Positions 37,128-56,316 of a stretch of DNA of 64,000 nucleotides are shown one piece after another; within the stretch, counting starts at the first letter, position 1, and every line of letters starts with the position of its first letter. The notes under the pieces were generated by a model, which saw only the letters and a list, made by a program, of their open reading frames with translations, did no database searches and was not told the DNA's origin. A program made the translations under genes and the position numbers. The DNA lies in assembly GCA_019911965.1 (NCBI GenBank), contig JAIOJF010000017.1, forward strand, positions 1 through 64,000, in the 5' to 3' direction. Origin of the DNA: Paracoccaceae bacterium. GTDB lineage: Bacteria > Pseudomonadota > Alphaproteobacteria > Rhodobacterales > Rhodobacteraceae.

Positions 37128-37157
37128 AATTTTTAATTGAGCGTTCAAACAAAAATT
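37128..37157. promoter_or_regulatory. Palindromic operator 1 of the amine cluster
   Basis: Core TTGAGCGTTCAA (37137-37148) lies in a 30-bp near-palindrome with A/T arms ending AATTTTT and AAAAATT. It sits in the divergent promoter region between the MttB-like gene and the first Rieske gene. Matching sites occur at 44562-44589 and 52573-52600. Likely bound by the BetI-like TetR regulator of the cluster. Confidence 0.75.
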
Positions 37158-37195
37158 GCTACATGTCCTCCACCCGGCAACCCCAAAGGCAAAAC

Positions 37196-38395
37196 ATGGA
37201 CGGCAACAGGACAGACCAGAACATCGCCTCCCGCCGCGGGCTTCCGGCCTGGAGCTATACCAGCCCGGAGCTTCTGGACGCCGAGAAAGAACTGTTGTTC
37301 CGCCGCCACTGGCAACTGGTCTGCCATGTCAACGACCTGCCGGATGCGGGCGATTACCTGACGATGGATATGGTCGGCGAACGCGCGCTGGTGATCCGGG
37401 GCAAGGATGGCCGCGTCCGCGCCTTTCACAACCTCTGCCGGCATCGCGGCTCGCGGGTGGTGGCCGATGACAAGGGCAGATGCAAATCGGTGCTGGTCTG
37501 CCCGTTTCACGGCTGGGTCTACAACCTTGACGGCACGCTGCGCGGTGCCTCGCAGCCTGACAGCCTGCCCGCGCTCGACCCCGATGAATGGGGGCTGAAG
37601 CCGCTGGAAACCGATCTCTGGAACGGTTTTGTCTTCGTGCGCTTCAAGCCCGGCCCGCAGCCGCCAGTATCGCAGATCATGGCCCGGTTCGACGCCGAAC
37701 TTGCACCTTACGGGCTGACTGGCTTGCAGCCGGACGGGGCCGGGTTCTGGCAGACCGAGGTTGCCGCCAACTGGAAATGCATCCGCGATGTCGACAACGA
37801 AGGCTACCACGTGCCGATGGCACATCCCGGCCTGCATGATCTGTTTGGCGACAACTACTATGACGAACCGTTCAGCGAAGGCACCAGCCGCTCATTCGCC
37901 ACCTTCCGCCCCGGCCCCGGCCGGTTGTGGAGCGTCGATGCCTACAAGGCGATCCTGCCGGAGGTGGCAGCGCTGGACCCGGATCACAATCGCGGCTGGC
38001 TCTATATCGGGATGTTTCCCAACCTGGTGTTCGGCATCTATCCCGATTCGGTGATCGCCTATCAGGAATTTCCGGTGGAGAATGGTCGCACCATCCAGCG
38101 TGGAGCCTGCTATCGCTATCCGAACGAGGACCGGCAGATGCGGCTGGCGCGCTATCTCAGCGGCCGGATCGACCGGATCACCAGCAAGGAAGACGAACAA
38201 CTGATCGAATGGTGCTGGGAGGCGTCGTTTTCCAGCGGGTTTGACGGTGTGCTGCTGTCCGACCTGGAAATCGGTGTGAAAAGCTACCACGACGAATTGC
38301 GCGCGCTGTTTCCGGTGCTGAATCACCGCGAACCGGAGCCCGGCACATTGACAGCGCGGAATGCCGAATTGCTGGCGCGGGGCGGCGAAGATTGA
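37196..38395 (+). CDS. Rieske oxygenase alpha subunit 1
   Basis: The 399-residue protein has a Rieske 2Fe-2S domain (C81-x-H83 and C102-x2-H105, in CRHRGSR and CPFHGW) and a mononuclear-iron domain with H205 and H210 in EGYHVPMAHP. This is the arrangement of aromatic-ring dioxygenases and also of quaternary-amine demethylases such as GbcA or Stc2. Here the neighbours favour N-demethylation, releasing formaldehyde. AAAGG stands before the ATG at 37196; an ATG at 37163 is possible but lacks a site. It heads an operon with the ABC transporter, Rieske 2 and a methyltransferase. No reductase gene is adjacent. Confidence 0.85.
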   Translation: MDGNRTDQNIASRRGLPAWSYTSPELLDAEKELLFRRHWQLVCHVNDLPDAGDYLTMDMVGERALVIRGKDGRVRAFHNLCRHRGSRVVADDKGRCKSVLVCPFHGWVYNLDGTLRGASQPDSLPALDPDEWGLKPLETDLWNGFVFVRFKPGPQPPVSQIMARFDAELAPYGLTGLQPDGAGFWQTEVAANWKCIRDVDNEGYHVPMAHPGLHDLFGDNYYDEPFSEGTSRSFATFRPGPGRLWSVDAYKAILPEVAALDPDHNRGWLYIGMFPNLVFGIYPDSVIAYQEFPVENGRTIQRGACYRYPNEDRQMRLARYLSGRIDRITSKEDEQLIEWCWEASFSSGFDGVLLSDLEIGVKSYHDELRALFPVLNHREPEPGTLTARNAELLARGGED

Positions 38396-38459
38396 CTTTG
38401 CCAAACCCACCCGGATTTGTGCATAGTCGGCAAACCGATCATGCCGCCGGGGGTGCGAA

Positions 38460-39320
38460 ATGAGGTTGAGCCGCGAAGGACGACAGGGATTGACCCTGAT
38501 CAGCCCGACGCTGGCCTATGCCCTGGTGATGCTTGCTGCCCCGCTGACGATGGTGGTCACCTTCAGCTTCTGGACGCAGAATTACCTCGACCTCGACACC
38601 ACCCTGACACTGGACAATTACCGCGAGGCATGGGGTACGCCGATCTATCAGGTGCTGCTGCTGCGCTCGCTGAAAATCTCGCTGATCGTGACCTTCGTGA
38701 CGGTGCTGCTGGCCTTTCCGGTGGCCTATTTCCTGTCGTTCAAGGTGAAGCGGCGCAAGGCCCTGTGGCTGTTCCTGATCACCATCCCGTTCTGGACCAG
38801 TTACCTGTTGCGGGTGTTCCTGTGGAAGGTGATCCTGGGCTATAACGGCGTCTTGAACTCGGCCCTGATGGGGATGGGGTTCATCGACGAGCCGATGACG
38901 TTCCTGTTGTACAACCTGAACGCGGTGGTGCTGACGCTGGCGCATGCCTGGGCACCGTTTGCCATCCTGCCGATCTTCGTGGCACTGGAAAAGATCGATC
39001 GTTCCCTGCTTGAAGCCGCCGAAGACCTGGGCGATGGCAAGATCAGGCAGTTTTTCCGCGTGACCCTGCCGCTGGCGATGCCGGGCGTGGTCGCCTCGAC
39101 CCTGATCGTGCTGATCCCGACCATCGGCGATTTCATCACGCCCAAGCTGGTTGGCGGCACCGACGGGCTGATGATTGCCAACATGATCCAGATCCAGTTC
39201 GGCAAGGCCAATAACGCGCCATTGGGGGCGGCGCTGGCGATCACCTCGATGCTGGTGGTGGCGTCGATCAGCGTGGTGATCTTCCTTGCGGGCAAGAAAT
39301 TCGGAGGCAAGGTGGAATGA
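38460..39320 (+). CDS. ABC transporter permease, PotB type
   Basis: The 286-residue inner-membrane permease has six predicted helices and the EAA loop EAAEDLGDGKIRQFFRVTLP at about residues 180-200 that contacts the ATPase. It is the first of two permeases of a spermidine/putrescine-type importer. GGGGGTG precedes the start. Its stop overlaps the next permease start by four bases. By context the substrate is a cationic, N-methylated amine. Confidence 0.9.
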   Translation: MRLSREGRQGLTLISPTLAYALVMLAAPLTMVVTFSFWTQNYLDLDTTLTLDNYREAWGTPIYQVLLLRSLKISLIVTFVTVLLAFPVAYFLSFKVKRRKALWLFLITIPFWTSYLLRVFLWKVILGYNGVLNSALMGMGFIDEPMTFLLYNLNAVVLTLAHAWAPFAILPIFVALEKIDRSLLEAAEDLGDGKIRQFFRVTLPLAMPGVVASTLIVLIPTIGDFITPKLVGGTDGLMIANMIQIQFGKANNAPLGAALAITSMLVVASISVVIFLAGKKFGGKVE

Positions 39321-40147
39321 AGACCGGCTCGGCCCTGTCGCGCAACTGGCTGGTGTTTTACGCCGTGGCCTACATGGTGTTTCTGTACGCGCCTGTGGTG
39401 TTGCTGCCGCTGTTCGCCTTCAACGACGCCACCATCATCGCCTTCCCGCTATCGGGCGCCACCACCAAATGGTTCACCGTGCTGTGGGAGACCGAGGCGC
39501 TGCATTCCGCGGTTGAAAACAGCCTGATCGTGGCCTTGTCCACATCTGCGATCAGCACGCTGCTGGGAGCCACCGCCGCCCGCGCGATGGCGCGTTACCG
39601 CTTTCCCGGCAAGCGCGGCATCGTCGGCTTCATCATGCTGCCGCTGGTGCTGCCGGAAATCATCGTGGCGGTATCGCTGCTGGTATTGCTGATGCAACTG
39701 GATATGGAGCTGTCGCTCTGGACGGTGGTCGGTGGCCATGTCCTGATCTGCGTGCCCTTCTCGATCGCCATCCTCAGTTCCGCCTTTCAGGGGCTGGACT
39801 CCAGCCTTGAGGAAGCCTCGTTCGATCTGGGCGAAACCCGCTGGGGCACGTTCCGGCGGATCATCTTCCCGCTGGTGCTGCCCGGCGTGATTTCCAGCAT
39901 GCTGATCACCTTCACCATCTCGCTTGATGAATTCATCATCGCGTTCTTCCTGACCGGCACCGATGTCACGCTGCCGGTCTATATCTGGAGCCAGCTTCGC
40001 TTCCCGACCAAACTGCCCTCGGTGATGGCATTGGGAACGATCCTTCTGGCCCTGTCCGTAATCCTGCTGATCCTCGGGGAATGGTTCCGCCAGCGTGCTG
40101 CGAAACGCCAGGGGATCGAGGCTTCGGCGACCGGAGGGTTCATGTGA
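39317..40147 (+). CDS. ABC transporter permease, PotC type
   Basis: The 276-residue permease has six helices and the EAA motif EEASFDLGETRWGTFRRIIF. It overlaps the first permease by four bases and lies two bases before the ATPase gene. The two permeases would form the heterodimeric channel of the PotABCD-like importer whose binding protein is encoded at 43417-44481 on the other strand. Confidence 0.9.
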   Translation: MKTGSALSRNWLVFYAVAYMVFLYAPVVLLPLFAFNDATIIAFPLSGATTKWFTVLWETEALHSAVENSLIVALSTSAISTLLGATAARAMARYRFPGKRGIVGFIMLPLVLPEIIVAVSLLVLLMQLDMELSLWTVVGGHVLICVPFSIAILSSAFQGLDSSLEEASFDLGETRWGTFRRIIFPLVLPGVISSMLITFTISLDEFIIAFFLTGTDVTLPVYIWSQLRFPTKLPSVMALGTILLALSVILLILGEWFRQRAAKRQGIEASATGGFM

Positions 40148-40148
40148 A

Positions 40149-41252
40149 ATGACCGGCAAAGACCCCAGGGCAATCATCCGCATGCAGGATGTCACCAAGT
40201 TTTTCGGCTCGTTCCAGGCGCTGAAAGGCATCACCACCACGATCAACGAGGGCGAGTTCTTTTCGCTGCTCGGGCCATCGGGCTGCGGCAAGACCACCTT
40301 GTTGCGCATGATCGCGGGCTTTGACGAACCGACCGACGGCGCGATCTATATCGGCGACGAACCGATGGCCGGCATCCCCGCCAACCAGCGCCCGACCAAC
40401 ATGGTGTTCCAGAGCTACGCGATCTTTCCGCATCTGAATGTCGCGGACAATGTCGGCTACGGGCTGAAGCGCAAGCGGATGTCGCGCGCCGAGATTGCCG
40501 CCGAGGTCGAGAAATCCCTCGCGATGGTCGATCTGGCCGGTTACGGCAAACGTGCGGCACATGAATTGTCCGGCGGCCAGCGCCAGCGTGTGGCCCTGGC
40601 CCGCGCCCTTGTGATGCGCCCTAAGGTGGTGCTGCTGGATGAACCGCTTTCGGCGCTGGACAAGAAATTGCGCGAACAGATGCAGGTGGAATTGCGGCAA
40701 TTGCAGCAATCCATCGGCATCACCTTCATCCTTGTCACCCACGATCAGGAAGAAGCCCTGATCATGTCCGACCGCATCGCGGTAATGTTCGAGGGTCAGA
40801 TCGAACAGGTTGCCACGCCCGAACAATTGTACCGCCACCCGGTCAGCCGCCGCGTCGCCTCGTTCATTGGCGTAATGACCCTGCTGGATGCACGCGCCAC
40901 CGCGCAACCCGGCAATACCGTGCGCGTCGACATTCCCGCCCTTGGCACCGTCGATCTGCCGGCAGCACGGGTGCCCGAGGGCATCGACCTTGCCAAGGTC
41001 GAGAAGATCGGCGTGCACCCGGAAATGCTGACCATCCTGCAGGACGAACACGAAACCGCCGAACGGGTGGTCGAGGCCGAGGTGGCCAGCCGCTCCTATT
41101 ACGGCGACATGACCTATTACAGCGTGCTGCTGCCCGGTGCCAATGCCCCGGCAACGATCTCGATGCGCAACACGTTCGGGCGTTCGGTGATTGATCCGGG
41201 CGCAAAGGTGAAGGTCGGCTGGGGGCAGGATTCGATCATCCTGTTCAAGTAA
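40149..41252 (+). CDS. ABC transporter ATP-binding protein, PotA type
   Basis: The 367-residue ATPase has Walker A GPSGCGKTT, the signature LSGGQRQRVALARAL, Walker B VVLLDEPLSALD and the H-loop VTHDQEEAL, then a C-terminal TOBE-like regulatory domain (about 270-367). It energises the importer. The ATG at 40149 directly follows the PotC-type stop; a longer start would run into that gene. Confidence 0.93.
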   Translation: MTGKDPRAIIRMQDVTKFFGSFQALKGITTTINEGEFFSLLGPSGCGKTTLLRMIAGFDEPTDGAIYIGDEPMAGIPANQRPTNMVFQSYAIFPHLNVADNVGYGLKRKRMSRAEIAAEVEKSLAMVDLAGYGKRAAHELSGGQRQRVALARALVMRPKVVLLDEPLSALDKKLREQMQVELRQLQQSIGITFILVTHDQEEALIMSDRIAVMFEGQIEQVATPEQLYRHPVSRRVASFIGVMTLLDARATAQPGNTVRVDIPALGTVDLPAARVPEGIDLAKVEKIGVHPEMLTILQDEHETAERVVEAEVASRSYYGDMTYYSVLLPGANAPATISMRNTFGRSVIDPGAKVKVGWGQDSIILFK

Positions 41253-41277
41253 CTCCGAATCCCGGCAAGGGGGACGC

Positions 41278-42516
41278 ATGGCATTGCCTGCCAGAAATAT
41301 CCACGACGAAACCGCAAGCCTGATTGCCCGCCACCGGCCCGGCCTTGCGTTGGCGCAGGGGTTCTATACGTCCGATACGGTCTATGCCGACGATATCGAA
41401 CGGATCATCATGCAGGACTGGCACTTTGCCGGGCTGGCCGGTGAAATCCCCGATCCTGGCGATTTCATGCTGTTTGAATTGCTCGATGAATCCGTCATTC
41501 TCAGCCGCGGCGCGGATGGTATGATCCATGCGCTGGCCAATGTCTGCCGGCATCGCGGCTCGCGGGTCTGTCTGGACCAGCGCGGAACCGCCCGGCGTTT
41601 TACCTGCCCCTATCACGCCTGGGTCTATGATCTTGATGGCTCGTTGCGCTCGGCCCGGCTGATGGGCGACGATCTGGACCGCGCAGCACTTGGCCTGAAA
41701 AAGGTGCCGATGGAACTGTTCCACGGCATGATCTTTGTATCCTTCGCCGCCCGGCCCACCAGTTTCGCCGCCATCCGCGCCGAGCTGGACCCGGTGCTGG
41801 CACCGTTCGCGCTGGAGCGCACGAAAATCGCCTGCCGCAAATCCTATCCGGTGGCGGCCAACTGGAAGCTTCTGGTCGAGAATTACAACGAATGCTACCA
41901 TTGCGCCCCGGCACATCCCGAGTTTCGCCGCGCCCATCTCACCCATATGGACGCCGCCCGCATTCAGCCCTTCAACGCGGCGATGGCCCCGCGTGCCGCC
42001 GCCCTTGGCATCGCCACCGATTATATCGACAAGGTCGGCGCGCTCTGCCCAGAAGGCTCGGTCGATTACACGTTCAGCCGCCATTCCCTGTACGACGGTT
42101 GCGCCACCGGCAGCGAGGACGGCCAGCCCTTGGCACCTTTGCTGGGAAATCTGGCAGGCTATGACAATGCCGCGTCGGACCTTTATGTCGGGCTGCTGAA
42201 CCCGATGCTGATCTACAATGACCATGTGGTGATCTACCGCTTCATCCCCGATGGCAAGGACCGCTCGATTCACGAAATCATCTGGCTGGTGCGCGAGGAT
42301 GCTGAATCGGGCAAGGATTACCATCCCGACCGGCTGACCTGGCTCTGGGATGTCACCACCATCGCCGACAAGGCGATCATCGAGGACAACCAGAAAGGCG
42401 TCGCCTCGCGCTATTACGATCCCGGCCCGCTGGCCGAGATGGAGGCCTATACCGCACGGTTTCTCGCCACCTATCTGGACCGGCTGGCCCGTCACCCCCA
42501 AGGAGCAAATGAATGA
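41278..42516 (+). CDS. Rieske oxygenase alpha subunit 2 (GbcA-like)
   Basis: The 412-residue protein has Rieske ligands C90, H92, C110 and H113 (CRHRGSR and CPYHAW) and the mononuclear iron site with H208 and H213 in ENYNECYHCAPAHPEF. The ENYNECYHCAPAHPEF form is close to glycine-betaine monooxygenase alpha subunits, so N-demethylation of a quaternary amine is the best guess. It overlaps the methyltransferase gene by four bases. No ferredoxin reductase partner is present. Confidence 0.87.
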   Translation: MALPARNIHDETASLIARHRPGLALAQGFYTSDTVYADDIERIIMQDWHFAGLAGEIPDPGDFMLFELLDESVILSRGADGMIHALANVCRHRGSRVCLDQRGTARRFTCPYHAWVYDLDGSLRSARLMGDDLDRAALGLKKVPMELFHGMIFVSFAARPTSFAAIRAELDPVLAPFALERTKIACRKSYPVAANWKLLVENYNECYHCAPAHPEFRRAHLTHMDAARIQPFNAAMAPRAAALGIATDYIDKVGALCPEGSVDYTFSRHSLYDGCATGSEDGQPLAPLLGNLAGYDNAASDLYVGLLNPMLIYNDHVVIYRFIPDGKDRSIHEIIWLVREDAESGKDYHPDRLTWLWDVTTIADKAIIEDNQKGVASRYYDPGPLAEMEAYTARFLATYLDRLARHPQGANE

Positions 42517-43313
42517 CCGAGCAGGACCTGCTATACGATGACAGCCATATCCGCTTTCTGGAAGATATCTGGGGCGAAGGCTATCTGTCGCCCGGCGGCG
42601 CGGAGGAAGCCGCCAGCGTGGTGGCCGGGCTGGACCTGTCCGGCAAGCGCGTGCTGGATATCGGTTGCGGGTCGGGCGCGATCTCGGTGCTGCTGGCGGC
42701 GGAGCTTGGCGCGGGCGAGGTGATCGGCATCGACGTTGAAGCGGAGGTCTGTGCCGCGGCCCGAAAACGCGTTGCCGCTGCCGGGCTGGCCGACCGGGTG
42801 ACGATCCGTCAGGTCGAACCGGGGCCGTTCGATTTCCCCGACCAGAGTTTCGATCTGGTCTATTCCAAGGATTCGATCATCCACATCCCCGACAAGGAGG
42901 CGCTGGCGCTTGAGGTGTTCCGCGTCCTGCGTCCCGGTGGCTGGTTCGCCGCTTCGGACTGGCTGATCGCGCATGACGATGAACCTTCCGACGAGATGAA
43001 AGCCTATATCGCCGCCGAAGACCTGGAGTTCGCGATGGCCTCGCCGGTGCGGTATCGCCGGGCCTTGCTCGAGGCGGGATTCGCTGAAGTGAACCTGACC
43101 AACCGCAATGAATGGTATTTCGAGGTTGCGACTGCGGAACTGGCCTGGATGACGGGGCCGGAACGCGCCCGGCTGGACGCCGAGCACGGCGCGGATTTCA
43201 TGGCCGAGCAGGAGGCGACATGGCGCGCGATGATCCGCGTGCTGGAAAGCGGCGAGCATTGCCCGCACCATCTGCGGGCACGGCGGCCCTTTGCCGGAAA
43301 CGACACCGCATAG
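42513..43313 (+). CDS. Class I SAM-dependent N-methyltransferase-like protein
   Basis: The 266-residue protein has the SAM-binding motif VLDIGCGSGAISVLLA, IGIDVEAEV and the post-motif RVLRPGGWFAASD. The DIWGEGYLSPGG segment resembles the phosphoethanolamine and sarcosine/dimethylglycine N-methyltransferase group. Such a protein is unusual among demethylases: it may reverse or balance a methyl step. A bidirectional terminator follows it. Confidence 0.8.
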   Translation: MTEQDLLYDDSHIRFLEDIWGEGYLSPGGAEEAASVVAGLDLSGKRVLDIGCGSGAISVLLAAELGAGEVIGIDVEAEVCAAARKRVAAAGLADRVTIRQVEPGPFDFPDQSFDLVYSKDSIIHIPDKEALALEVFRVLRPGGWFAASDWLIAHDDEPSDEMKAYIAAEDLEFAMASPVRYRRALLEAGFAEVNLTNRNEWYFEVATAELAWMTGPERARLDAEHGADFMAEQEATWRAMIRVLESGEHCPHHLRARRPFAGNDTA

Positions 43314-43366
43314 GCGGTGCGGTAAGGTTTTCCGGTGGCATTGCCCGAACCGACCCCCGCAACAAA

Positions 43367-43404
43367 TGCGCCCCGCAATCGCTTGCGGGGCGCAGTTTCA
43401 TTTC
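43367..43404. terminator. Bidirectional Rho-independent terminator
   Basis: A perfect twelve-pair stem TGCGCCCCGCAA (43367-43378), loop TCGC, TTGCGGGGCGCA (43383-43394) is followed by GTTTCATTTC on the plus strand; on the minus strand it is followed by TTTGTTGCGG. It lies between the convergent methyltransferase and binding-protein genes. Confidence 0.93.
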
Positions 43405-43416
43405 AACCTGATCGGC

Positions 43417-44481
43417 TCAGAAACCGGCCTTGATCAGCTCGAACTCGGCGATCATCTGCTCGCGCCGCGCGGCGGGAACCGGGCCTTGCCAGAGCGTTCC
43501 GGCCCTGAGGTTCTCGCTGGTTTCCAGCCCGACCGCGGCCAGGTCTTCCTGGCTCATCGTCGCCATTGCGGTGGCATTGGAATGGCCGTAGCCCCAGTTG
43601 TTCACGATGTAATCAGCGGTTGCCGGCTCCAGCCAGGCATTGATGAAATCGTAGAACTTGTCTTCCGAGCCCGGCGCATTTGCCAGCCTGGAATAGCCGC
43701 AGACCCAGCTTGACGAACCTTCCGCCGTATCGCGCTTCATGGCGATCGGATGGCCTTCATAGCTCATGGTCGAGAAAGTCTCGTTCCACGCCCAGGACAG
43801 GTAAACCTCGCCCGATTGCATCAATTGCGCCAGCGACGCGCCATCGGACCAGTAAGTGCGGATATTCGGATGCACCTTGCGCAGGAAAGCCGAGGCGGCG
43901 GCGAATTGCTCGTCCGTTGCGCTGGCCCAATCCTTCACCCCGACCGCCAAAAAGCCGAGCGCATAGGCATCATCCACGTTGTCGGGCAGCGAAATCCTGC
44001 CCGCATGTTTGGGATCGGCAAAGGCCTGCAACGAGGCAACGTCGGCCTCGGCCAGCAATTCGGTATTGTAGGTGAGGCCGGTATTGCCCCAATCGACCGG
44101 CACGAAGTAATATTTGCCGTCCTTCTGGAAGGCCGGGATGTCGCGGAACGAGGTTTCCAGTTCATTCCAGCGCGGGATTTTGGCGGTATCAAGCGGTGCC
44201 AGCAAACCGGCCTCGATCCATTTCGGCACCGATTGCGAACAGGGATGCACCGCGTCGGCGGCAAAGCCCGAGCGAAGCTTCTGGAACGCCTCTTCCTCGT
44301 CGCCGAAAAAGGCGAAGGTCGGCGCATCGCCGTGTTTCGCGGTGAACGCGGTGTAGAATTCCGGGTCTTCATAGCCGGCCCAGTCAAACACCACCAACTC
44401 GGCATCCGCGGCGATGGCAGCGTTCGCCGACAGCGCCAGCGCCCCGGCAAGGACGGCGGCCATCTTGAAATTATTGGTCAT
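43417..44481 (-). CDS. Periplasmic binding protein, PotD/PotF type
   Basis: The 354-residue protein has a Sec signal peptide (MTNNFKMAAVLAGALALSAN, cleavage after AIA) and a spermidine-binding-protein-like two-lobe fold (VVFDWAGYEDPEFYTAF, YFVPVDWGNTGLTYN). It would capture the amine for the PotABC-like permeases encoded at 38.5-41.3 kb. ATG 44481 is preceded by GGGAG. It is divergent from the trimethylamine-dehydrogenase-like gene, with operator 2 between. Confidence 0.9.
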   Translation of the reverse strand: MTNNFKMAAVLAGALALSANAAIAADAELVVFDWAGYEDPEFYTAFTAKHGDAPTFAFFGDEEEAFQKLRSGFAADAVHPCSQSVPKWIEAGLLAPLDTAKIPRWNELETSFRDIPAFQKDGKYYFVPVDWGNTGLTYNTELLAEADVASLQAFADPKHAGRISLPDNVDDAYALGFLAVGVKDWASATDEQFAAASAFLRKVHPNIRTYWSDGASLAQLMQSGEVYLSWAWNETFSTMSYEGHPIAMKRDTAEGSSSWVCGYSRLANAPGSEDKFYDFINAWLEPATADYIVNNWGYGHSNATAMATMSQEDLAAVGLETSENLRAGTLWQGPVPAARREQMIAEFELIKAGF

Positions 44482-44561
44482 CGGTTTCTCCCTTGGGTCT
44501 GTTTCGGACAGTTTTCGTGATCTAGCATTGTCCAAGGCTAGAAAAGAAATCAACTTGACTC

Positions 44562-44589
44562 AAGTTTAATCGAGCGCTCAAATAAAATT
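44562..44589. promoter_or_regulatory. Palindromic operator 2 of the amine cluster
   Basis: Core GAGCGCTC (44572-44579) lies in a 28-bp near-palindrome with left arm AAGTTTAA and right arm AATAAAATT. A -35-like TTGACT (44555-44560) with 17 bp to TCAAAT (44578-44583) places the palindrome inside a possible promoter for the gene at 44619. It lies between the binding-protein gene and that gene. Confidence 0.75.
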
Positions 44590-44618
44590 TGGCTGAAAAA
44601 GCAGGATAATTTCCCCAA

Positions 44619-46643
44619 ATGCGCGATCCCCGGCACGATATTCTGTTCCAGCCGTTGAAAATCGGCCCGGTCACGGCGAAAAACCGGTTCTATCAGGTGC
44701 CCCATTGCAACGGCATGGGCTGGCGGCGGCCCAGAACCGCGGCGGCGATGCGCGGAATGAAGGCCGAAGGCGGCTGGGCCGTGGTCAATACCGAATATTG
44801 CTCGATCCACCCGTCCAGCGATAATGACCCATTTCCGAACGCCACCCTGTGGGACGATCACGATATCCGCGCGCATGCGCTGATGACCGATGCGGTGCAT
44901 GCGCATGACGCGCTGGCGGGTGTGGAATTGTGGCTGGGCGGCGGCATGGTGATGAATTTCGGCACGCGCACGCCACCGCTTGGCCTGCGCGACCGCCCTT
45001 CCACCGATTCCGGCATTCCCCACCCAGTGCAGACCCGCCGGATCGACCGCCAGGATATCCGCAATATCCGCCAATGGCACAAGGATGCCGCAGGGCGCGC
45101 GGTGCAGGCCGGTTTCGATATCGTCTATGTCTATGCGGCGCATGGCTACCTGCTGTCGGAATTCCTGGATGCCGAATGCAACAACCGGACGGACGAATAT
45201 GGCGGCAGCCTGGAAAACCGCACCCGGCTGATCCGCGAACTGATCGAAGAAACCCACGAGGCGGTGGCGGGCAAGGCGGCGGTGGCGGTGCGCTACAGCG
45301 TCGATCCCGACAATCCCGAAACCTATGACGCCTTCGCGACGATGGCCGACATGCCTGACCTCTGGGATCTGACCGGCCCGGATTACAGCATCGAGATGGG
45401 CGCCAGCCGTTTCGTCAAGGAGGGCGCATTGGTGGATATCGTGGCCCGGGCCAAGGCGATGACCAGCAAGCCCGTGGTGTCGGTCGGGCGTTTCACCTCG
45501 CCCGACACGATGGCGCGGGTGATCGCCTCGGGCGCACAGGACATGATCGGCGCGGCGCGGCCTTCGATCGCCGATCCGTTCCTGCCGCTGAAGATTGCCG
45601 AGGGCCGCAGCGACGATATCCGCGAATGTATCGGCTGCAACATCTGTTACGCGCATGACAGCCTTGGCGTGCCGCTGCGCTGCACCCAGAACCCGACGAT
45701 GGGCGAGGAATGGCGGCAGGGCTGGCACCCTGAAAGAACAGGTCGCGCGAAACGCCCCGAAAAGGTGCTGGTGATCGGGGCCGGCCCGTCAGGGCTGGAG
45801 GCGGCACGGGTCCTGGGCGAACGGGGCCACGAGGTCATGCTGGCGGAAGCCGGGCGTGAACTGGGCGGCCATCTCAGCCGTATCGCGCGGCTGCCGGGGC
45901 TGGCGGAATGGGCGCGGGTGCGCGACTGGCGGCTGGGGCAGATCGACAGGCTTGCGAATGTCGGGATATACCGCGAAAGCCTGCTGGCGGCGGGCGATAT
46001 TCCCGGGCTGGGCGCGGATCATCTATTCATCGCCACCGGCGCGAGATGGGCTTCCGACAATATCGGGCGGCATTCGGATCATGCGGTCGCGGACCCGGGC
46101 GCGATGATCGTCGACGCCGAAACCGTGATTGATGGCGCGGCGATCAAGGGCGACCATGTAGTGATCTATGATGACGATCACTATGTCATGGGCCCGGTGC
46201 TGGCCCTGTATCTGCGCGGACTTGGCCACCGGGTCACGCTGGCAACACCTGCCGGGCGGGCGGGAAGCTGGGGCAGCTATACCGCCGAAATCCACGCCTC
46301 GAACCATGCGCTGGCCGAGGCCGGGGTGGAGATCGTGACCAATCACAGGCTGAGCGGGCTTGAGGCAGGCCGCGCAATCCTGGCCCATGTGTTTTCGGAT
46401 CGCGAGATGCCGCTGGCCTGCGATGCGGTTGTGCCTCTGACACGGCGGATACCGCAGGACGATCTTTTTCACGCGCTGGCGGACAGCGGCATGAAAACGC
46501 TGCTGAGGATCGGTGACGCCGAAGCGCCGTCGCTGCTGGCCGCTGCGGTTCACAGCGGCTATGCGGCGGCGATCAGCTTTGGCACCAAGGGCGGGCTGGC
46601 GGCGATGGACGGGCGGCGCGAACATCCGTTGCTGCGGGAATGA
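44619..46643 (+). CDS. Trimethylamine-dehydrogenase-like FMN/4Fe-4S oxidoreductase
   Basis: The 674-residue protein is laid out like trimethylamine, dimethylamine or histamine dehydrogenase: an Old-Yellow-Enzyme-type barrel (1-330), a 4Fe-4S cluster with C337, C340, C343 and C355 (C-x2-C-x2-C-x11-C, the TMADH spacing), then a pyridine-nucleotide-disulfide fold (VIGAGPSGLEAARVLGERG). C30 in QVPHCNGMG equals the TMADH cysteine that carries FMN covalently. It would oxidatively demethylate a tertiary or secondary amine. N-methylproline demethylase is another possible identity. Operator 2 lies upstream. Confidence 0.87.
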   Translation: MRDPRHDILFQPLKIGPVTAKNRFYQVPHCNGMGWRRPRTAAAMRGMKAEGGWAVVNTEYCSIHPSSDNDPFPNATLWDDHDIRAHALMTDAVHAHDALAGVELWLGGGMVMNFGTRTPPLGLRDRPSTDSGIPHPVQTRRIDRQDIRNIRQWHKDAAGRAVQAGFDIVYVYAAHGYLLSEFLDAECNNRTDEYGGSLENRTRLIRELIEETHEAVAGKAAVAVRYSVDPDNPETYDAFATMADMPDLWDLTGPDYSIEMGASRFVKEGALVDIVARAKAMTSKPVVSVGRFTSPDTMARVIASGAQDMIGAARPSIADPFLPLKIAEGRSDDIRECIGCNICYAHDSLGVPLRCTQNPTMGEEWRQGWHPERTGRAKRPEKVLVIGAGPSGLEAARVLGERGHEVMLAEAGRELGGHLSRIARLPGLAEWARVRDWRLGQIDRLANVGIYRESLLAAGDIPGLGADHLFIATGARWASDNIGRHSDHAVADPGAMIVDAETVIDGAAIKGDHVVIYDDDHYVMGPVLALYLRGLGHRVTLATPAGRAGSWGSYTAEIHASNHALAEAGVEIVTNHRLSGLEAGRAILAHVFSDREMPLACDAVVPLTRRIPQDDLFHALADSGMKTLLRIGDAEAPSLLAAAVHSGYAAAISFGTKGGLAAMDGRREHPLLRE

Positions 46644-46687
46644 GGGCGGGGCAGCGCTGACGCGCAACCCCGGTTCATGCGACCTGT

Positions 46688-48076
46688 TCAGGCCGCCTTG
46701 CCACCCGATTTTGCAAGATCATTGCTGACCTGTTCCAGCGCCTGTTCCAGAATGTCGAACATGTCGTCCAGTTGCGCCCTGGTGATAATCAGTGGCGGCG
46801 AGAATACCGCCATGTTGATCAGGGGCCGCACCAGAAGGCCGCGTTCCTCGCAGGCATCGTCAATCGCCTGGCCCAGATTGCGCTCGGCCTCCAGATTCTC
46901 GGCCCGGCCCTCGATACACCCCAGCAGCCCCATGCCACGGGCATCGCCAACCACCGGAAACTTCGTCAGTGCCCTGAGGCGTTCCTGGAAATAGGGCGAA
47001 ATCTCGCGGACATGTTCCAGAATGCCCTCGCGCTCGATGATCTCGATGTTCTTCAGCGCGGCGGCGCAACTGACCGGATGGCCGGAATAGGTATAGCCGT
47101 TGGAAAACGAGGTCGGATCGTCGGAATCGCTCAACCGCCGCATCACCTGGTCGGAAATGATGCAGGCCCCCAGCGGCAGATAGCCCGAGGTCAGGCCCTT
47201 GGCGCAGGTGATCATGTCGGGCACGACGCCGAACACCGCTTCGGAGCTGAACCAGTGGCCCAGACGGCCGAACCCGGTCACCACCTCGTCGGAGATATAA
47301 AGGATGTCATGGGCGCGGCAGATTTCGAAGGTGCGCTTGTGATAGCCTTCGGGCGGCACGATCACGCCGCCGGAACTCAGGATCGGCTCGGCGATGAAGG
47401 CACCGACATTCTCGGCCCCGACTTCCGCGATGGCGCGTTCCAGATCGCCGACCTTTTCATCGCACCACTCCGCCACGCTCATCCCCTTGGGGCGGCGATA
47501 GGGGTTCACGTCGGGGACAAAATGCACCAGCCGCTCCTCGACATCGAAGCGGTTCTTGTCGCGCTCCTTGCCGGTGACGGAATGCGCCAGATAAGTGGAA
47601 CCGTGATAGCCCTTTTCACGCGCGATTACGATCTTCTTGTCGGGCCGGCCCATCCGGTTATTCATGAAATGCATGGTGCGCAGCGCGGTATCCACCGCGG
47701 TTGACCCGCCGGTGGTGAAGAACACGTTGTTCAGATCGCCCGGTGCCATCTTCGCCAGTTGCCGTGCCAGGATGGCGGATGGTTCCGAGGTATTGGTGAA
47801 GGGCGAGGTATAGGGCAGACGCTTGACCTGATCGTAGATCGCCTCCGCCATCTCGTCGCGCCCATAGCCGATCTGCACGCACCACATGCCGGCAGGGCCG
47901 TCGATGTAACGCTTGCCCTGACCGTCCCAGATGTAGATGCCATCCGCCTGATCGACCAGCATGTTGTCGTATTCCCGCCAGGCATCCACCGACGCCCAGG
48001 GATGAAGCTGGTGATTTCGGTCCCATTTGTGCAGCGTTTCAAGGCTGGGTTCGTTCGATTGCGGATCGGTTGTCAT
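46688..48076 (-). CDS. Class III aminotransferase
   Basis: The 462-residue PLP enzyme belongs to the omega-aminotransferase group (beta-alanine, taurine, putrescine). The PLP lysine is K293 in [14 protein letters not shown], the cofactor aspartate is D263 in [11 protein letters not shown], and [12 protein letters not shown] binds the phosphate. It would deaminate the amine left after demethylation to an aldehyde. It is last in the minus-strand group 52525 to 46688, 20 bp after the GcvT-like gene. Confidence 0.9.
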
Positions 48077-48096
48077 GGTATCTCCGATAGGTTCAC

Positions 48097-49302
48097 TCAG
48101 AACCGGTTGGGTGGGGTGGCGCGGGCGCGCTTATGGGTGAAGAACGGCTTGTCCTCGATCCTGACCGGGACCAGACGCTTGTCCCACTGGCCTTCCAGGT
48201 TCACGTAGATCTCGGCCCAGAGGTCGCCTTTGACCGCGCCGCCGTAAGGGGCCCGCAATTCCGCCAGCGCGACATTGCGCTTGGCGGTCGGTGACCAGAT
48301 GCCGGATGTGACATGGCCGACCTCTTTCTTCTTCTTGTGGTACAGCAAGGCGCCATCGGCGGGCCTGAAGCCGCCGATATCGAGGCGCACCAGATGATGC
48401 TTCGGCCCGCGCGCGCGCTCTGCCAGCAAGGCGCGGCGACCGTTGAAATGGCCCTTGTCGAAATCGACCATCCGGGCAAAGCCCAGTTCCAGCGGGCTGC
48501 GGCCGCGCCCAAGGCGGATCGCGCCATGCACCGGCTGGAAATCCACCCCGGCGGCGATAAAACCGGCCTCGATCCGCGCGATATCAAGGGCCTCGCCGCC
48601 GATCGCCCGCAGGCCCCAATTGCCGCCCGCCGCCCATAGCCGGTCCCAGAGCGCCAGCACGCCGTCCCAGCCGCACCACAATTCATAGCCCAGATCGCCG
48701 GTAAAGCCGGTGCGCGATATCCAGATGCCGGGCTCGACCTCGTCCAGATCGAACGGCTTCAACCCGGCGACAGCATCGCCAAACCCGGCCTCGGCCAGCA
48801 GCGAGAACGCCGTCGGCCCCTGCAAGGATAGCCCGGCAATCGCCTCGGATTCGTCACGGATTTCGGCGTCGAACCCCCAGGCGCTGTCCAAGAGCCATGT
48901 CAGCATCGGCTCCTGACAGCACAGGCGGAAATCGGCTTCGCCAAAGCGGAAGATCGTGCCGTCGTCGATCACCATGCCCTGTTCGTTGCACCACATGGCG
49001 TAGCCGACCCGGCCAATGCCGATCTTGGCCGCATCGCGGGTGATCAGCCGGTTCATCACCGCCAGCGCATCCGGCCCGGTGATGCGGTATTTGTGCATCG
49101 GCGAGATGTCGAACAACGTCACCTGATTGCGGATGGCGAAATACTCGAACTCCACATTGTCCAGCACGCGGGCCGTTATGTATCCGGCCCAGCCTGCCCA
49201 GGCCTTGGCTTGGCTGAGCGCCTCCAGCCTTGGCTGAAGCGGCGTCGGCACAAGGCCGATGGGCACGGCGAAGGGCTGCGGTATCTTCGCGGATTTCGCC
49301 AT
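48097..49302 (-). CDS. GcvT-like folate-dependent aminomethyltransferase/demethylase
   Basis: The 401-residue protein has the GcvT barrel: [17 protein letters not shown] at the N-terminal part, [17 protein letters not shown] in the middle and [14 protein letters not shown] near the C-terminus. Family members take up the methyl as methylene-tetrahydrofolate in glycine cleavage or in demethylation of dimethylglycine, sarcosine or DMSP. The context of demethylases fits the second type. It overlaps the FAD oxidoreductase upstream by one base (TGATG). Confidence 0.85.
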
Positions 49303-50873
49303 CAGGCCACCCCATCGCGCAAAAGCTGCAAGGCGGCATTGCGCCCCGGTGCGCCGGTCACGTCGCCGCCCGGATGCGCTGCGGCACCACAGAGGTACAG
49401 GCCATTAACGCCGAAGCGGTACCGCGCCATGCCGTTGGCCGGGCGGTTGGTCAGCACCTGATCGAAACCCATTTCGCCGTGATGCCAGTGGCCGCCGGGC
49501 GCGCCGGTCAGCGCCTCGATATCCGGCGGGACCAGGGTTTCGGACTGCGTGACAAGCCCGCTCAGGCCCGGCGCATATTGCTCCAGCACCCCAAGTACGG
49601 TTTTCAACAATGCGTTGCGGCGCGCCTTGGTCCAGCCGCCATCGGGGGCGGGCGGCACGAAGTTGACAATGGCCGAGGCCACCTGCCGACCGTCGCTGGC
49701 AAGCGATGGATCGGACAGGCAAGGCAACAGCAATTCGATGCTGGGCGCGGTCGGCATCTCGCCGTATTTCGCCGGGTTGAAGGCGCGTTCGACATACTCC
49801 ACCGAAGGCGCGATCACCAGCCGGCCCCGGTTCAGATCCACCGGCAGGCCGGGGATGGCGGGCACCCCGCTCAGCACCAGATTGATCTTGGCCACGCTGC
49901 CCTTGCAACGGTGATGGCGCAGGCGGCGCACGGCCTCGGTATCGAAATGCCGGATACCGGCCAGTTTCAGCGTCGGCATCGGTCCGGCGCTTGACAAGAT
50001 AGCCCCGGCGCCGAGCCGGGTGCCGTCATCCAGCAGCACGCCGACGGCGCGGTCATCGGCAACCTCGATCCCAGCCACGCCATTGCCAAGGCGTATGTCG
50101 CATCCCACCGCGCGCGCCGCGCTTGCGAAGGCCTCGGCCACCGCCCCCATGCCGCCAACCGGCAAGGCGACATTGCCGCCATTGCCCATGCGGTACATCA
50201 GCGTGAACACCGTTCCGGGCGAGCGTGGCCCGGCAAACGCCCCCCGGACGGCATCCGCCGCCAGCAGGCCGGCCAACGGGCCATCGCCCATCTCGTCCAG
50301 CAGCAAATCATGCGCGTTCGACATCAGGATGCGCAGGAATTCCCGCATCTCGACCTTGCCCAGCCGTTTCAGCCCCAGCCCCAGCCGCGCCAGCCGGATC
50401 AACTCGCCCAGCTTCGCAGGGTCCAGCAGGCTGCCTTGCAGGCCGGGTGGCGGGTTTTCGGACATCTTCGCCAGCAGGCCGGCGAACCGGGTCAGCCGGT
50501 CGTGCAGCGCCGCAAACGCCGCCGCATCGGGATGCGCACGGCCATCGGCAAACCGCGCCTTGCCTGCCTCGACCACCACATGATTGCCGTCCGGCGACAA
50601 CGCCACCGATGGCAGGGCAAGGGTCTTCAGCGGAATGCGCTCGCCCAGCCCCAGGTCACGCGCCACTTTCGGGTTGAGGTTGTACAGCAGATGCGCCATC
50701 CGGGGCGCGGTGACGCCCTTGGCGGGCGAAAAATTCCCCGCCATGCCGCCCAGAGTATCCGAGCGTTCCAGCACACAGACCCGCCGACCCTTGCGCGCCA
50801 GCGTCGCCGCCGCTGCAAGCCCGTTATGGCCGGCCCCGATCACGATCACATCGAAATCGCGTGCCGCACTCAT
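49302..50873 (-). CDS. Phytoene-desaturase-like FAD oxidoreductase A
   Basis: The 523-residue flavoprotein has the N-terminal dinucleotide fold DVIVIGAGHNGLAAAATLA and the C-terminal FAD motif YLCGAAAHPGGDVTGAPG. Carotenoid-desaturase-like oxidoreductases of this kind also oxidise amines. It overlaps the next upstream FAD gene by four bases (ATGA). Being homologous to that neighbour, it probably arose by tandem duplication, and the two may form a heteromer. Confidence 0.82.
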   Translation of the reverse strand: MSAARDFDVIVIGAGHNGLAAAATLARKGRRVCVLERSDTLGGMAGNFSPAKGVTAPRMAHLLYNLNPKVARDLGLGERIPLKTLALPSVALSPDGNHVVVEAGKARFADGRAHPDAAAFAALHDRLTRFAGLLAKMSENPPPGLQGSLLDPAKLGELIRLARLGLGLKRLGKVEMREFLRILMSNAHDLLLDEMGDGPLAGLLAADAVRGAFAGPRSPGTVFTLMYRMGNGGNVALPVGGMGAVAEAFASAARAVGCDIRLGNGVAGIEVADDRAVGVLLDDGTRLGAGAILSSAGPMPTLKLAGIRHFDTEAVRRLRHHRCKGSVAKINLVLSGVPAIPGLPVDLNRGRLVIAPSVEYVERAFNPAKYGEMPTAPSIELLLPCLSDPSLASDGRQVASAIVNFVPPAPDGGWTKARRNALLKTVLGVLEQYAPGLSGLVTQSETLVPPDIEALTGAPGGHWHHGEMGFDQVLTNRPANGMARYRFGVNGLYLCGAAAHPGGDVTGAPGRNAALQLLRDGVA

Positions 50874-52525
50874 GCCTCGGCCCCCAGCGGCTCGCGGTGA
50901 TCCGGCATCGCCCGCCTGCGCCCCAGCCCGCGCAGGATTTCACGCGCCGCATTAGCCCCCGGAGCCGCCATAACCCCGCCGCCCGGATGCGCCGACGAGC
51001 CGACCAGATACATCCCCCTGATCGGCATGTCATAGCTGGCATAGCCCGGCACCGGACGGTTGAACAGCAATTGATCGAAGGTCAATTCGCCCTGAAAAAT
51101 ATTGCCCTCGGTCAGGCCGACCTCGTTTTCGATATCCCAGGGGCTGCGGATTTCGGCGTGCACCACATGGCGGCGGATATCCGGGCAGCATTGCTCGATC
51201 TTGTCGAATACGGCATCGGCGAAGGCCTTGCGCTGGATGTCGTCCCAGTTATCGGCGCTGCGCACCCCGCCGACATTCAGATCATACGGCGCGTATTGCA
51301 CGAACACCGTCATCATGTGCTTGCCGGGCGGCGCCATTGTCGGATCGATCTGGCTGGGGATCAGCATGTCGAAGTAGGGCTCGGACGACCAGCGCCCATC
51401 CTTCCAGTCGTCATAGGCCCGCTCAAGCTCATCGAGCGTCGTCGAGCAATGCAGATCGCCGCGCAGGAACGGCGCACCTTTCGGGGCGGCGGGAAAGTCC
51501 GGCAAGGCGTCCAGCGCAATGTTCAGCTTGCCGCTGGAGCCACGTATCTTGAAACGCTCGACTGCGGTCACGAAATCATCCGGCAGCGCGGCGCGGTCGG
51601 TATGTTTCAGGAAGGTCCGCTTCACGTCCATGTTCGAACCGACGATCCCGGCCCGGTATTCATCGCCATTGTCCAGCGCCACACCGGTGACCCGCCCGTC
51701 CTGCACAAGGAACTTCTCGACGCCCGCGCCGGTGACGATGGTGCCATCCGCCTCGGTGAAACTGTCACCCAGCGCTTTCGTGATCGCGCCCATGCCGCCG
51801 CGAGCGAAACCCCAGGCCCCGATGCTGCCATCGACATCGCCCATGTAATGATGCAGCAGCACATAGGCGGTGCCCGGCGAATAAACGCCAAGGCCGGTGC
51901 CGATGATCCCCGATCCGGCCAGATGCGCCTTGATCAGATCACTCTCGAAATGCTCGTCCAGGAAATCGCCGATCGACATGGTCCAGAACCGCAGGGTCTC
52001 GTTCAACTCATGCGCGCCGAGGCCATGCGCCTTGCGGCCGAGATAGAGCATTTCCTGAAGGTCGCGCGGGCGCAGCGAGGTCGGGTCGGGTGCATTGCGC
52101 AACAGGAACGGGCGGATGAACCGGCACTGGCGGATCACCGTCTGGCTGAACCGCGTATAGGCGTCGGCATCGCGGGCGGAATGGCGGCTGATCTCGCGGC
52201 GCAGCGCGTCATGATCCGACAGATAGGCGAAATAATCGCCATCGCGGGTGAAGGTTGCCCCGCCTTCATAGGGGATCACCTGCAATCCGAAACGCGGCAA
52301 TTCCAGATCGCGCACGATCTCGCGGCGCAGCAATGAGCAGACATAGGAGCAGTTGGAATAGGTCCAGCCCTCGTGCAACGAACGGCTGACCGCCGCACCG
52401 CCGATCCAGTCGTTCTTTTCCACCACCAGCACCTTCAGCCCGGCCCGCGCCAGGTAGCAGGCCGTGGTCAGGCCGTTATGCCCGGCCCCCGCGATGATCG
52501 CGTCATATGTGTCGTGTTGGCCCAT
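50870..52525 (-). CDS. Phytoene-desaturase-like FAD oxidoreductase B
   Basis: The 551-residue flavoprotein has the N-terminal AGAGHNGLTTACYLARAG motif and C-terminal YLVGSSAHPGGGVMAAPGAN, matching its neighbour A. It is the first gene of the minus-strand operon FAD-B, FAD-A, GcvT-like, aminotransferase. Operator 3 lies upstream, in the gap it shares with the TetR gene. The substrate is unknown; amine dehydrogenation is inferred from neighbours. Confidence 0.82.
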   Translation of the reverse strand: MGQHDTYDAIIAGAGHNGLTTACYLARAGLKVLVVEKNDWIGGAAVSRSLHEGWTYSNCSYVCSLLRREIVRDLELPRFGLQVIPYEGGATFTRDGDYFAYLSDHDALRREISRHSARDADAYTRFSQTVIRQCRFIRPFLLRNAPDPTSLRPRDLQEMLYLGRKAHGLGAHELNETLRFWTMSIGDFLDEHFESDLIKAHLAGSGIIGTGLGVYSPGTAYVLLHHYMGDVDGSIGAWGFARGGMGAITKALGDSFTEADGTIVTGAGVEKFLVQDGRVTGVALDNGDEYRAGIVGSNMDVKRTFLKHTDRAALPDDFVTAVERFKIRGSSGKLNIALDALPDFPAAPKGAPFLRGDLHCSTTLDELERAYDDWKDGRWSSEPYFDMLIPSQIDPTMAPPGKHMMTVFVQYAPYDLNVGGVRSADNWDDIQRKAFADAVFDKIEQCCPDIRRHVVHAEIRSPWDIENEVGLTEGNIFQGELTFDQLLFNRPVPGYASYDMPIRGMYLVGSSAHPGGGVMAAPGANAAREILRGLGRRRAMPDHREPLGAEA

Positions 52526-52572
52526 CTCTGCTCCGCCGTTTCGCCTGTTCTAGCGATTTTGCGCCCCGCCGT

Positions 52573-52600
52573 AAAGTTTTCTGAGCGCTCAAACAAATTT
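52573..52600. promoter_or_regulatory. Palindromic operator 3 of the amine cluster
   Basis: Core TGAGCGCTCA (52582-52591) lies in a 28-bp near-palindrome with A/T arms AAAGTTTT and AACAAATTT. It lies between FAD oxidoreductase B and the TetR regulator gene, so it would allow autoregulation. Confidence 0.78.
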
Positions 52601-52676
52601 TTCCTCGCCAGCCCGCGCCGCTTGTGGAACCATGACGAATAGTCAAGAATGCGCCCATCTGGCTGCGAAGGACGAG

Positions 52677-53330
52677 ATGACCGAGACCCAACGCCCGCGC
52701 AAGGAACGCAAGGAAAACGCCGACAAGCGGCGGCGGCAGATTCTGGACGCCACGATCCGGTCGATTGCCGCCAACGGGCTGGCCCGCACCACCCTGGCCA
52801 CCGTTGCCACCGAGGCGGGGCTGTCGCAGGGGGTGGCGGTATTCTACTTCAAATCCAAGAACGGCCTTTTGACCGAGGCTCTGCGCGATCTCTACCAGGC
52901 CTATACCGAACACTGGCAGGGCGCGCTGAAACGCGCCGGCAGCGATCCGGTTGACCGGCTGGTGGCGATCATCCGCGCGGATTTCGATTCCGAGATAGTC
53001 AATCCCGAGGTCCTGTCGGTCTGGTTCGCGTTCTGGGGCGAGCAAAGCGTGACCACGCAATATGCCGATATCGTGCGTGAATTCGATCACAAGCGGCAGG
53101 TGGCGCTCAGGTCGATCTGCATGGCTTTGCTGCCCGAAGATCACGAACGCGCCATTCGCATCGCCGTCTGGGTCGATGCCATGACCGATGGCCTGTGGCA
53201 GCATCTGCATCTCTACCGCAAGGAACAGGAAACCGGACCGGCCCTGCAGACCACGCTGCAATTCCTGTCGGCCTTGCTGCCGGAATATGCCGACCGGCTG
53301 ACAGCCTGTACCGCCCCGAACCCGGACTAG
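52677..53330 (+). CDS. BetI-like TetR-family regulator
   Basis: The 217-residue protein has a TetR helix-turn-helix (about residues 20-65: RRQILDATIRSIAANGLART and LSQGVAVFYFKSKNGLL) and a C-terminal domain with VLSVWFAFWGEQS, similar to BetI ligand domains. Start 52677 has AAGGA upstream; an ATG at 52632 would add 15 residues. It sits next to operator 3 and is expected to bind all three palindromes and release them with a cluster metabolite. Four bases separate it from the ligase gene. Confidence 0.88.
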   Translation: MTETQRPRKERKENADKRRRQILDATIRSIAANGLARTTLATVATEAGLSQGVAVFYFKSKNGLLTEALRDLYQAYTEHWQGALKRAGSDPVDRLVAIIRADFDSEIVNPEVLSVWFAFWGEQSVTTQYADIVREFDHKRQVALRSICMALLPEDHERAIRIAVWVDAMTDGLWQHLHLYRKEQETGPALQTTLQFLSALLPEYADRLTACTAPNPD

Positions 53331-54696: not shown

Positions 54697-54806
54697 CGTA
54701 TAGCGTCTGATCAGAATCACGCAGTCAACCGATGTCCCGAGGCAGCGTTTGCCACAAGCAAATTTGTTCGGGACGTCGGGAGAATTCAATCTGGCGCAAT
54801 ATGCTA
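54694..54806. repeat. Palindromic intergenic element, copy 2
   Basis: This 113-bp imperfect palindrome is homologous to 13628-13742. Outer arms TAGCGTATAGCGTC (54694-54707) and GGCGCAATATGCTA (54793-54806) pair with wobbles. Inner arms TCCCGA and TCGGGA pair perfectly. It stands between two convergent genes, and each end forms a TAG stop: the ligase stop at 54694-54696 and the Rieske 3 stop at 54804-54806. It could act as a bidirectional terminator. Confidence 0.8.
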
Positions 54807-55946: not shown

Positions 55947-56066
55947 GGCGTGATCTTTCAGCGGGTCACGGGGGCTATGTCGATTATACAATGGTTTGGC
56001 GGCCAGGCTACCGGGAAGGCAGCGGCACCGACCGACCAACGGTAATTCTACTGAAAGAACGGGGAA

Positions 56067-56141: not shown

Positions 56142-56316
56142 GGAATGTGGCGGGTGATTAGACGCATTTTCCGAAGCGTGCAAGTGCAAACCGGCCTGCC
56201 CGCCCCACCCCGGGCGATTTCACCGCGAAACCGCCTGCGGGCAGGAAACCGCCGCCACCGCAAAGCACCAAAATGGCCAACTGGACCCTCGCCGGGACCT
56301 CATGTAGACAATGCGC

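Follow-up and report, generated by a model that had tools for sequence, protein, structure and literature searches.

The gene cluster and its palindromic sites

The window, as we call the whole 64,000-nucleotide stretch analysed here (positions 1 to 64,000 of contig JAIOJF010000017.1 from a Paracoccaceae bacterium, assembly GCA_019911965.1), carries an amine gene cluster in which an MttB-family methyltransferase, three Rieske oxygenases, a Pot-like ABC importer, a flavoprotein of the old yellow enzyme (OYE)/TMADH type and amine-oxidase-type flavoproteins surround a gene for a BetI-like TetR regulator (Table 1). One palindrome recurs in three divergent gaps of this cluster, and on comparative sequence evidence its three copies are very probably operators of that TetR protein, which would make the cluster an autoregulated local repressor regulon.

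All three sites share the core TTGAGCGCTCAA with A/T arms around it, and the features given in a preliminary description of this DNA, namely a GAGCG(C/T)TC core, a right arm CAAA(C/T)AAA and A/T flanks, were read at 3/3 sites where it had placed them. The 12-bp palindromic core is TTGAGC·GCTCAA (the dot marks the centre), from which every copy in the window deviates by one base; to the left and right of the centre, the 37-kb site reads TTTAATTGAGC and GTTCAAACAAA, the 44-kb site TTTAATCGAGC and GCTCAAATAAA, and the 52-kb site TTTTCTGAGC and GCTCAAACAAA. The preliminary description had proposed scanning the genome for the motif. Searching all 3.67 Mb (60 contigs, 99.36% complete) with the pattern TGAGCGYTCAAAYAAA at up to two mismatches returned the three sites (0, 0 and 1 mismatch) and, as the only unrelated match, one two-mismatch place on another contig; beyond the three sites there was no match within one mismatch in the genome, and the same pattern read backwards as a control gave none. 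Within the window, six matches (three sites on both strands) were found at up to three mismatches, against a shuffle mean of 0.87, and 0 of 100 window shuffles reached six. A matrix built from 51 TetR-side sites of relatives, with the window excluded, scored 49.3, 38.4 and 37.9 at the three sites, the two remote from TetR ranking second and third, and −10.7 at the fourth-best place; the top scores in eight Markov pseudo-windows ran from −7.3 to 2.7. For two of the three window sites this amounts to a prediction, since the matrix was trained in other species on sites that adjoin a different gene.

Gene orientations place the three sites in the divergent gaps inside the cluster. The preliminary description had called these the only three such gaps, which holds within the cluster and fails at its edge, where a fourth lies between Rieske 3 and MurA (from 56112). 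This fourth gap held no site (best matrix score −23.9 in 56080-56460), and a hidden operator before Rieske 3 in the window was rejected on the matrix scan. The suggestion that the sites could control every transcription unit except Rieske 3 fits the gene order, because the glutamine-synthetase-like open reading frame (ORF) starts four bases past the TetR stop.

Table 1. Genes and putative operators of the cluster (positions in the window)
Feature	Position	Strand	Remarks
MttB-family methyltransferase	35533..37020	-	Divergent from Rieske 1
Operator 1 (putative)	37128-37157		Core 37137-37148, TTGAGCGTTCAA; MttB / Rieske 1 divergent gap; full read AATTTTTAATTGAGCGTTCAAACAAAAATT
Rieske 1 oxygenase	37196..38395	+	Closest solved structure: carnitine monooxygenase 6y9c
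Rest of Rieske 1 operon: two Pot-like permeases, ATPase, Rieske 2, methyltransferase	38460..43313	+	
PotD-like ABC substrate-binding protein	43417..44553	-	ORF as listed; true start about 44482, by eye
Operator 2 (putative)	44561-44590		Core 44570-44581, TCGAGCGCTCAA; binding protein / OYE divergent gap
OYE/TMADH-like flavoprotein	44619..46643	+	Closest solved structure: histamine dehydrogenase 3k30; also TMADH 1djn
Class III aminotransferase AT3	46688..48076	-	
GcvT-like, probably tetrahydrofolate-dependent C1 transferase	48097..49302	-	Operon-internal
FAD-A, amine-oxidase-type flavoprotein	49302..50873	-	Operon-internal
FAD-B	50870..52525	-	Leads FAD-B/FAD-A/GcvT/AT3 operon
Operator 3 (putative)	52572-52601		Core 52581-52592, CTGAGCGCTCAA; FAD-B / TetR divergent gap
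BetI-like TetR regulator	52677..53330	+	PF00440 + PF13977
Glutamine-synthetase-like (gamma-glutamyl-amine synthetase type)	53335..54696	+	Probably co-transcribed with TetR
Rieske 3	54804-56111	-	Without operator in the window

Two start codons were reassigned by eye. The listed TetR ORF start (52632) is probably too early, with the likely ATG behind AAGGA at 52677, a start preferred because most homologues align from about residue 14-21; likewise, the listed Rieske 1 start (37163) nearly abuts the operator, for which reason the ATG at 37196 is preferred. Both revised starts agree better with homologues and with the operator. The closest solved structures to the importer's binding protein are spermidine/putrescine-binding proteins.

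Conservation of the sites in relatives

A TetR match at E 1e-25 or better was present in 67 of 394 genomes of the family, with 27 at 47% identity or above (own genome included), and 58 named loci with TetR relatives were collected. The core lies no more than 250 bp upstream of the TetR match at 52 of the 58 loci (40 exact, 9 with one mismatch, 3 with two), many of which come from close kin (Leisingera, Roseovarius), so that these counts are not independent events; among 2,900 Markov-shuffled upstream regions, a one-mismatch core appeared in 0.1%. In relatives that keep the cluster the sites are conserved, a point that the preliminary description had singled out for checking. When 48 sites were aligned on the core, information was high from about −15 to +10 and fell to background by about 18 bases on each side, as would be expected from a protein footprint of 25-30 bp.

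Across 71 sequences (the 58 named loci, the window and 12 distant stretches), 100 cores with at most one mismatch were found (82, 3 and 15 by source). None of the 100 lies wholly within a cluster gene match; one at L094:1908, which extends over the end of Rieske 2 and lacks A/T arms, is probably a chance match. For all but two, a cluster gene starts no more than 260 bp away on one side or both, the two being a core upstream of Rieske 3 in L042 and another at L071:20169. The 12 distant stretches, a subset of the distant matches, were chosen by genome-wide pattern match without prior knowledge of their genes, and in 12/12 a Rieske 1 homologue starts beside a core with at most one mismatch. The sites also travel with the genes: L045, L049 and L094 pair MttB with OYE, where the window pairs MttB with Rieske 1, and each of these gaps carries a site; elsewhere AT3 instead of FAD-B adjoins TetR and the site is kept. 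Uniqueness in the genome, conservation and rearrangement together support the local regulon with autoregulation that the preliminary description had suggested. Neither of the two computational outcomes that it had named as refuting, many unrelated genomic matches or loss of the sites from relatives with the cluster, was seen.

The sites separate genes that lead transcription units from those inside them. Counting cores with up to two mismatches, with the window included and homologues below 50% identity, matched only from residue 61 or with less than 260 bp upstream left out, a core precedes FAD-B in 38/38 cases, TetR in 46/48, MttB in 5/5 and Rieske 1 in 21/25 (those without are in L078 and L089-L091). 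Among internal genes the corresponding counts are 0/35 for FAD-A, 0/16 for Rieske 2, 0/24 for the ATPase, 0/31 for PermB, 0/27 for PermC, 1/37 for GcvT, 3/30 for the methyltransferase and 0/4 for the glutamine-synthetase-like gene; three of the twelve unnamed stretches overlap the end of a named locus, and a few core-less internal genes are counted twice in the 71 sequences. AT3 has a core upstream in 13 of 51 cases, and the copies with a core are those adjoining TetR. In L041-L043, Rieske 3 directly follows TetR and is preceded by a core; in the window, the glutamine-synthetase-like gene lies between the two.

Association between the sites and the TetR gene

The regulator has a TetR helix-turn-helix domain (PF00440, 2.6e-10) and a BetI-type C-terminal domain (PF13977, 56.5 bits against a cut-off of 27), and its AlphaFold model (predicted local distance difference test score, pLDDT, 92.2) adopts a TetR fold, with Z about 20 to TetR structures. 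The structure search served only to confirm the fold and to find ligand-bound neighbours, among them one TetR protein whose crystal structures contain choline (4kwa, Z 19.8) and trimethylamine (N,N-dimethylmethanamine; 4nel, Z 19.5).

Presence of the site tracks presence of this gene. The consensus pattern of the relatives, which among the window sites only the third fits within one mismatch, was found at one mismatch in 33 of the 394 genomes: 21 of the 27 with a TetR orthologue (at least 47% identity) and 12 of the 367 without one (Fisher p 2e-21, from a table compiled by hand in which 40 of the 367 orthologue-less genomes have a weaker TetR match at E 1e-25 or better). Six genomes with an orthologue gave no pattern match; five of them have a core with one or two mismatches beside TetR (L021, L025, L029, L035, L036), and the sixth, G348, has no core beside TetR. 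In the tree, the main clade (support 92/87) has the site in 51 of 52 rows, and a sister group of seven has two with the site. Throughout the site-bearing group the recognition-helix stretch reads GLSQGVAVFYF with almost no variation; a neighbouring paralogous TetR reads GLSIGIVNFHF, and its cluster has a different palindrome.

That paralogue belongs to a second transporter/TetR/OYE cluster, which in L074-L079, L081 and L082 lies downstream of the TetR relative at a distance of ~1-9 kb; in 7/8 of these loci its binding-protein gene is preceded by a palindrome of the ATTGAATGATCATTCAAT type. A further variant was seen in L089-L091, where distant relatives of TetR keep the same recognition helix and a similar Rieske 1/transporter set is present, but no such core; in L089, TTTGAATaactACTCAAA lies upstream of Rieske 1 and is possibly a longer-spaced operator.

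Promoter architecture and proposed mechanism

In the OYE promoter, operator 2 has a −35-like TTGACT on one side and a −10-like TCAAAT on the other. In a survey of 15 of the 19 OYE-side sites, a −35 box with at least five of the six bases of TTGACA lies just left of the operator in 14/15 gaps, and a −10 candidate, TCAAAT or CTCAAT, lies 17-18 bp on, inside the right side of the operator; these boxes are matches to consensus hexamers, with no control for the OYE gaps. Promoter hexamers of the binding-protein gene were inconsistent between loci. A model with the TTGAGC half-operator as the −35 box of Rieske 1 was at most suggestive and was set aside; its −10 match averaged 3.0, against 2.0 at shifted spacings, over 13 hand-picked sites. 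A bound dimer would cover the OYE promoter, and repression by occlusion, with one palindrome serving both divergent promoters, is taken as the most likely mode of action.

In the proposed mechanism, a TetR dimer (or a pair of dimers) would occupy TTGAGC·GCTCAA when no inducer is present and would keep RNA polymerase off the two divergent promoters in each gap. Six units would be repressed together: MttB; Rieske 1 with the ABC transporter, Rieske 2 and the methyltransferase; the binding protein; OYE; FAD-B, FAD-A, GcvT and AT3; and TetR with the glutamine-synthetase-like gene. Release would come through a small amine, most likely the substrate, quaternary or methylated, or an intermediate formed early on, and self-repression of TetR would set its level. 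Binding of TetR to the sites, its repressive effect and a methylated-amine inducer are all steps that we infer.

Weighing the model against alternatives

Several observations weigh against the TetR operator model. The core was not found upstream of six of the 58 TetR relatives (L086, L089-L091, L096 and L097). Five of these six belong to the sister group, which mostly keeps the same helix, so that the helix alone is no predictor of the site; L086 is core-less inside the main clade. Two genomes without an orthologue, G326 (99% complete; best TetR match 28% identical) and G393 (72% complete), each hold a core, with one mismatch in G326, together with Rieske 1. Once two mismatches are tolerated, 138 of the 394 genomes contain the pattern; at that level it is noise, and weak matches count for little. 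No more than three to four of six bases agree in the OYE −10 boxes, and the boxes of the binding protein and Rieske 1 are weaker; the 4kwa and 4nel amines may have been bound incidentally during crystallisation. Finally, the core is not always found before the binding protein (22/35), OYE (20/29) or Rieske 3 (2/6). Of the nine core-less OYE genes, eight show only 54-62% identity and come from loci of the paralogous or distant systems; the ninth is in L051. All 13 core-less binding-protein genes lie directly behind AT3 on the same strand, where transcription from the FAD-B or AT3 promoter would extend into them; the same AT3-binding protein order occurs despite a core in six loci (L041, L043, L057, L069, L072 and L088), so that read-through is a partial account.

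The alternative that fares best, though we regard it as unlikely, is that TetR acts as an activator, or as a dual regulator as reported for Ruegeria pomeroyi BetI2. It has a precedent in that species, where betTA is reported to be induced by choline while the divergent betI2 remains repressed by BetI2 (PMC12442346). Against it, each gap here holds one palindrome and not two overlapping ones, and the OYE palindrome lies between the −35-like and −10-like boxes, a position typical of occlusion.

Somewhat less probable again is that we are dealing with BetI itself, a choline-responsive regulator whose regulon has expanded. The protein does pass the cut-off of the NCBIfam model PRK00767, 'transcriptional regulator BetI' (123.7 against 118 bits), but falls below that of TIGR03384, the choline-binding repressor BetI (123.6 against 201.3 bits). 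Neither a choline dehydrogenase nor a betaine-aldehyde dehydrogenase was found among the cluster genes scanned, and the neighbourhood is one of MttB, Rieske, ABC, OYE, FAD and GcvT genes, not betA, betB and betT. Comparison with the betI box ATTGA-N4-TCAAT points neither way, the operator having equal spacing, a different centre and mostly a different outer base. The same genome has another BetI-type gene (L007, G000:C33:895-1212), followed by a frame that looks GMC-oxidoreductase-like by eye and provided with its own, different palindrome, ATTGACTcgtcAGTCAAT, at about 590-607 of L007; in the tree, both E. coli BetI and the L007 protein, the latter on a long branch, fall outside the regulator's clade. 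BetI proper was rejected on the TIGR03384 cut-off, genome context and tree; we regard the regulator as related to BetI but probably distinct from the choline repressor. The label 'BetI-like' in the preliminary description was well chosen, and 'BetI' would not have been; automatic annotation may nevertheless call this protein BetI, where genome context and operator say otherwise.

There is still less to recommend the idea that the palindromes are operators of another regulator, encoded elsewhere, with the TetR gene no more than one target among others. In its favour are the two orthologue-less genomes with core and Rieske 1, G326 and the incomplete G393, and the pattern matches in 12 of the 367 genomes that have no orthologue. 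Among the 11 of those 12 genomes that were examined, with one matched stretch each, a cluster gene at 50% identity or more adjoins the match only in G326 and G393, and the matches in G376, G045 and G336 (L135, L143 and L149) all lie at equal distance from a distant GcvT-like gene (28-29% identical) and probably represent one conserved gene, not an operator. A long open frame over the match was tried as a sign of a coding chance match and proved useless, the window's own operators also lying in long open frames. The site tracks this TetR gene strongly, TetR is the only regulator among the scanned cluster genes, and the core spacing is that of BetI-family operators, all of which favours the neighbouring TetR protein over another regulator. 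The G326 site itself (L154, G326:C1:866000-876000, at about 4816) could be a relic or belong to another regulator. An origin by chance or as a structural repeat, such as a shared A/T-rich promoter motif with no dedicated regulator, has next to nothing in its favour beyond arms that are A/T rich, as in many promoters, and was rejected on the genome scan, the window shuffles, the matrix scores, the upstream regions of relatives (52/58 loci) and the near absence of cores before internal genes.

Inducer, pathway and significance

The importer, Rieske, OYE, MttB, GcvT-like and flavoprotein genes, taken with the amine-bound fold neighbours, make a methylated amine a plausible inducer by analogy. We lean towards the wider reading that a previously undescribed repressor-operator pair, with sensing distinct from that of choline, defines the complete gene set of an oxidative demethylation pathway for a quaternary or polyamine-like methylated substrate. 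Such a pathway would comprise two or three Rieske oxygenases, the TMADH-like OYE, MttB, GcvT-like C1 transfer, amine oxidases, an aminotransferase and Pot-like uptake, and would extend over Roseobacteraceae/Paracoccaceae and some genomes labelled Rhodospirillaceae, Kiloniellaceae and Geminicoccaceae. Homarine catabolism was considered as the pathway and dropped, the literature search giving no match to the cluster, and searches on stachydrine/Rieske and TetR/Rieske regulons brought up nothing on this system. A description of this operator or regulon was not found in the literature searched by core string and topic, with RegPrecise and most subscription journals beyond reach. The operator delimits the genes of one pathway across dozens of alphaproteobacterial loci, and the regulator can serve as a handle on that pathway, the releasing compound probably being a substrate or intermediate of methylated-amine metabolism.

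Comparison with known systems

The regulon is new and well delimited, and its regulator belongs to a family already known. In spacing and context it agrees with the BetI branch. The BetI-like operator shape mentioned in the preliminary description agrees with both BetI systems compared, each with TTG-N6-CAA spacing: the R. pomeroyi BetI1 box, ATTGACG*CGTCAAT, whose protected stretch of 29 bp covers a predicted −35 box (PMC12442346), and the E. coli betI-betT gap, which contains ATTGGACGTTCAAT. With BetI of E. coli and BetI1 of R. pomeroyi, our system shares, besides this spacing, a PF13977-type TetR protein, a divergent or autoregulatory gene position and a connection to methylated amines. It differs in its centre (GC·GC here, CG·CG or AC·GT in theirs), its extended A/T arms, its recognition helix (QGVAVFYF against TGIISHYF) and its targets, which are Rieske/OYE/MttB/FAD oxidation genes and a Pot-like transporter in place of betABT. 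R. pomeroyi BetI2 likewise places a BetI-type TetR protein over a divergon in a marine alphaproteobacterium; its choline divergon has two overlapping palindromes that share AAACTTGAAC (PMC12442346), where each gap here has one.

The Roseovarius-type paralogous TetR is also BetI-like and tied to a similar transporter and OYE set, but is only 29-35% identical, and its likely operator is of the longer ATTGAATGATCATTCAAT type. TmaR/TmoR of R. pomeroyi trimethylamine catabolism (PMC13390433) offers a parallel of another kind, in that a methylated-amine cluster of a marine alphaproteobacterium is again under local control; there, an AraC-type activator and a GntR-type repressor govern a different gene cluster, in contrast to the single BetI-like TetR protein that we predict to repress all three divergent gaps described here.

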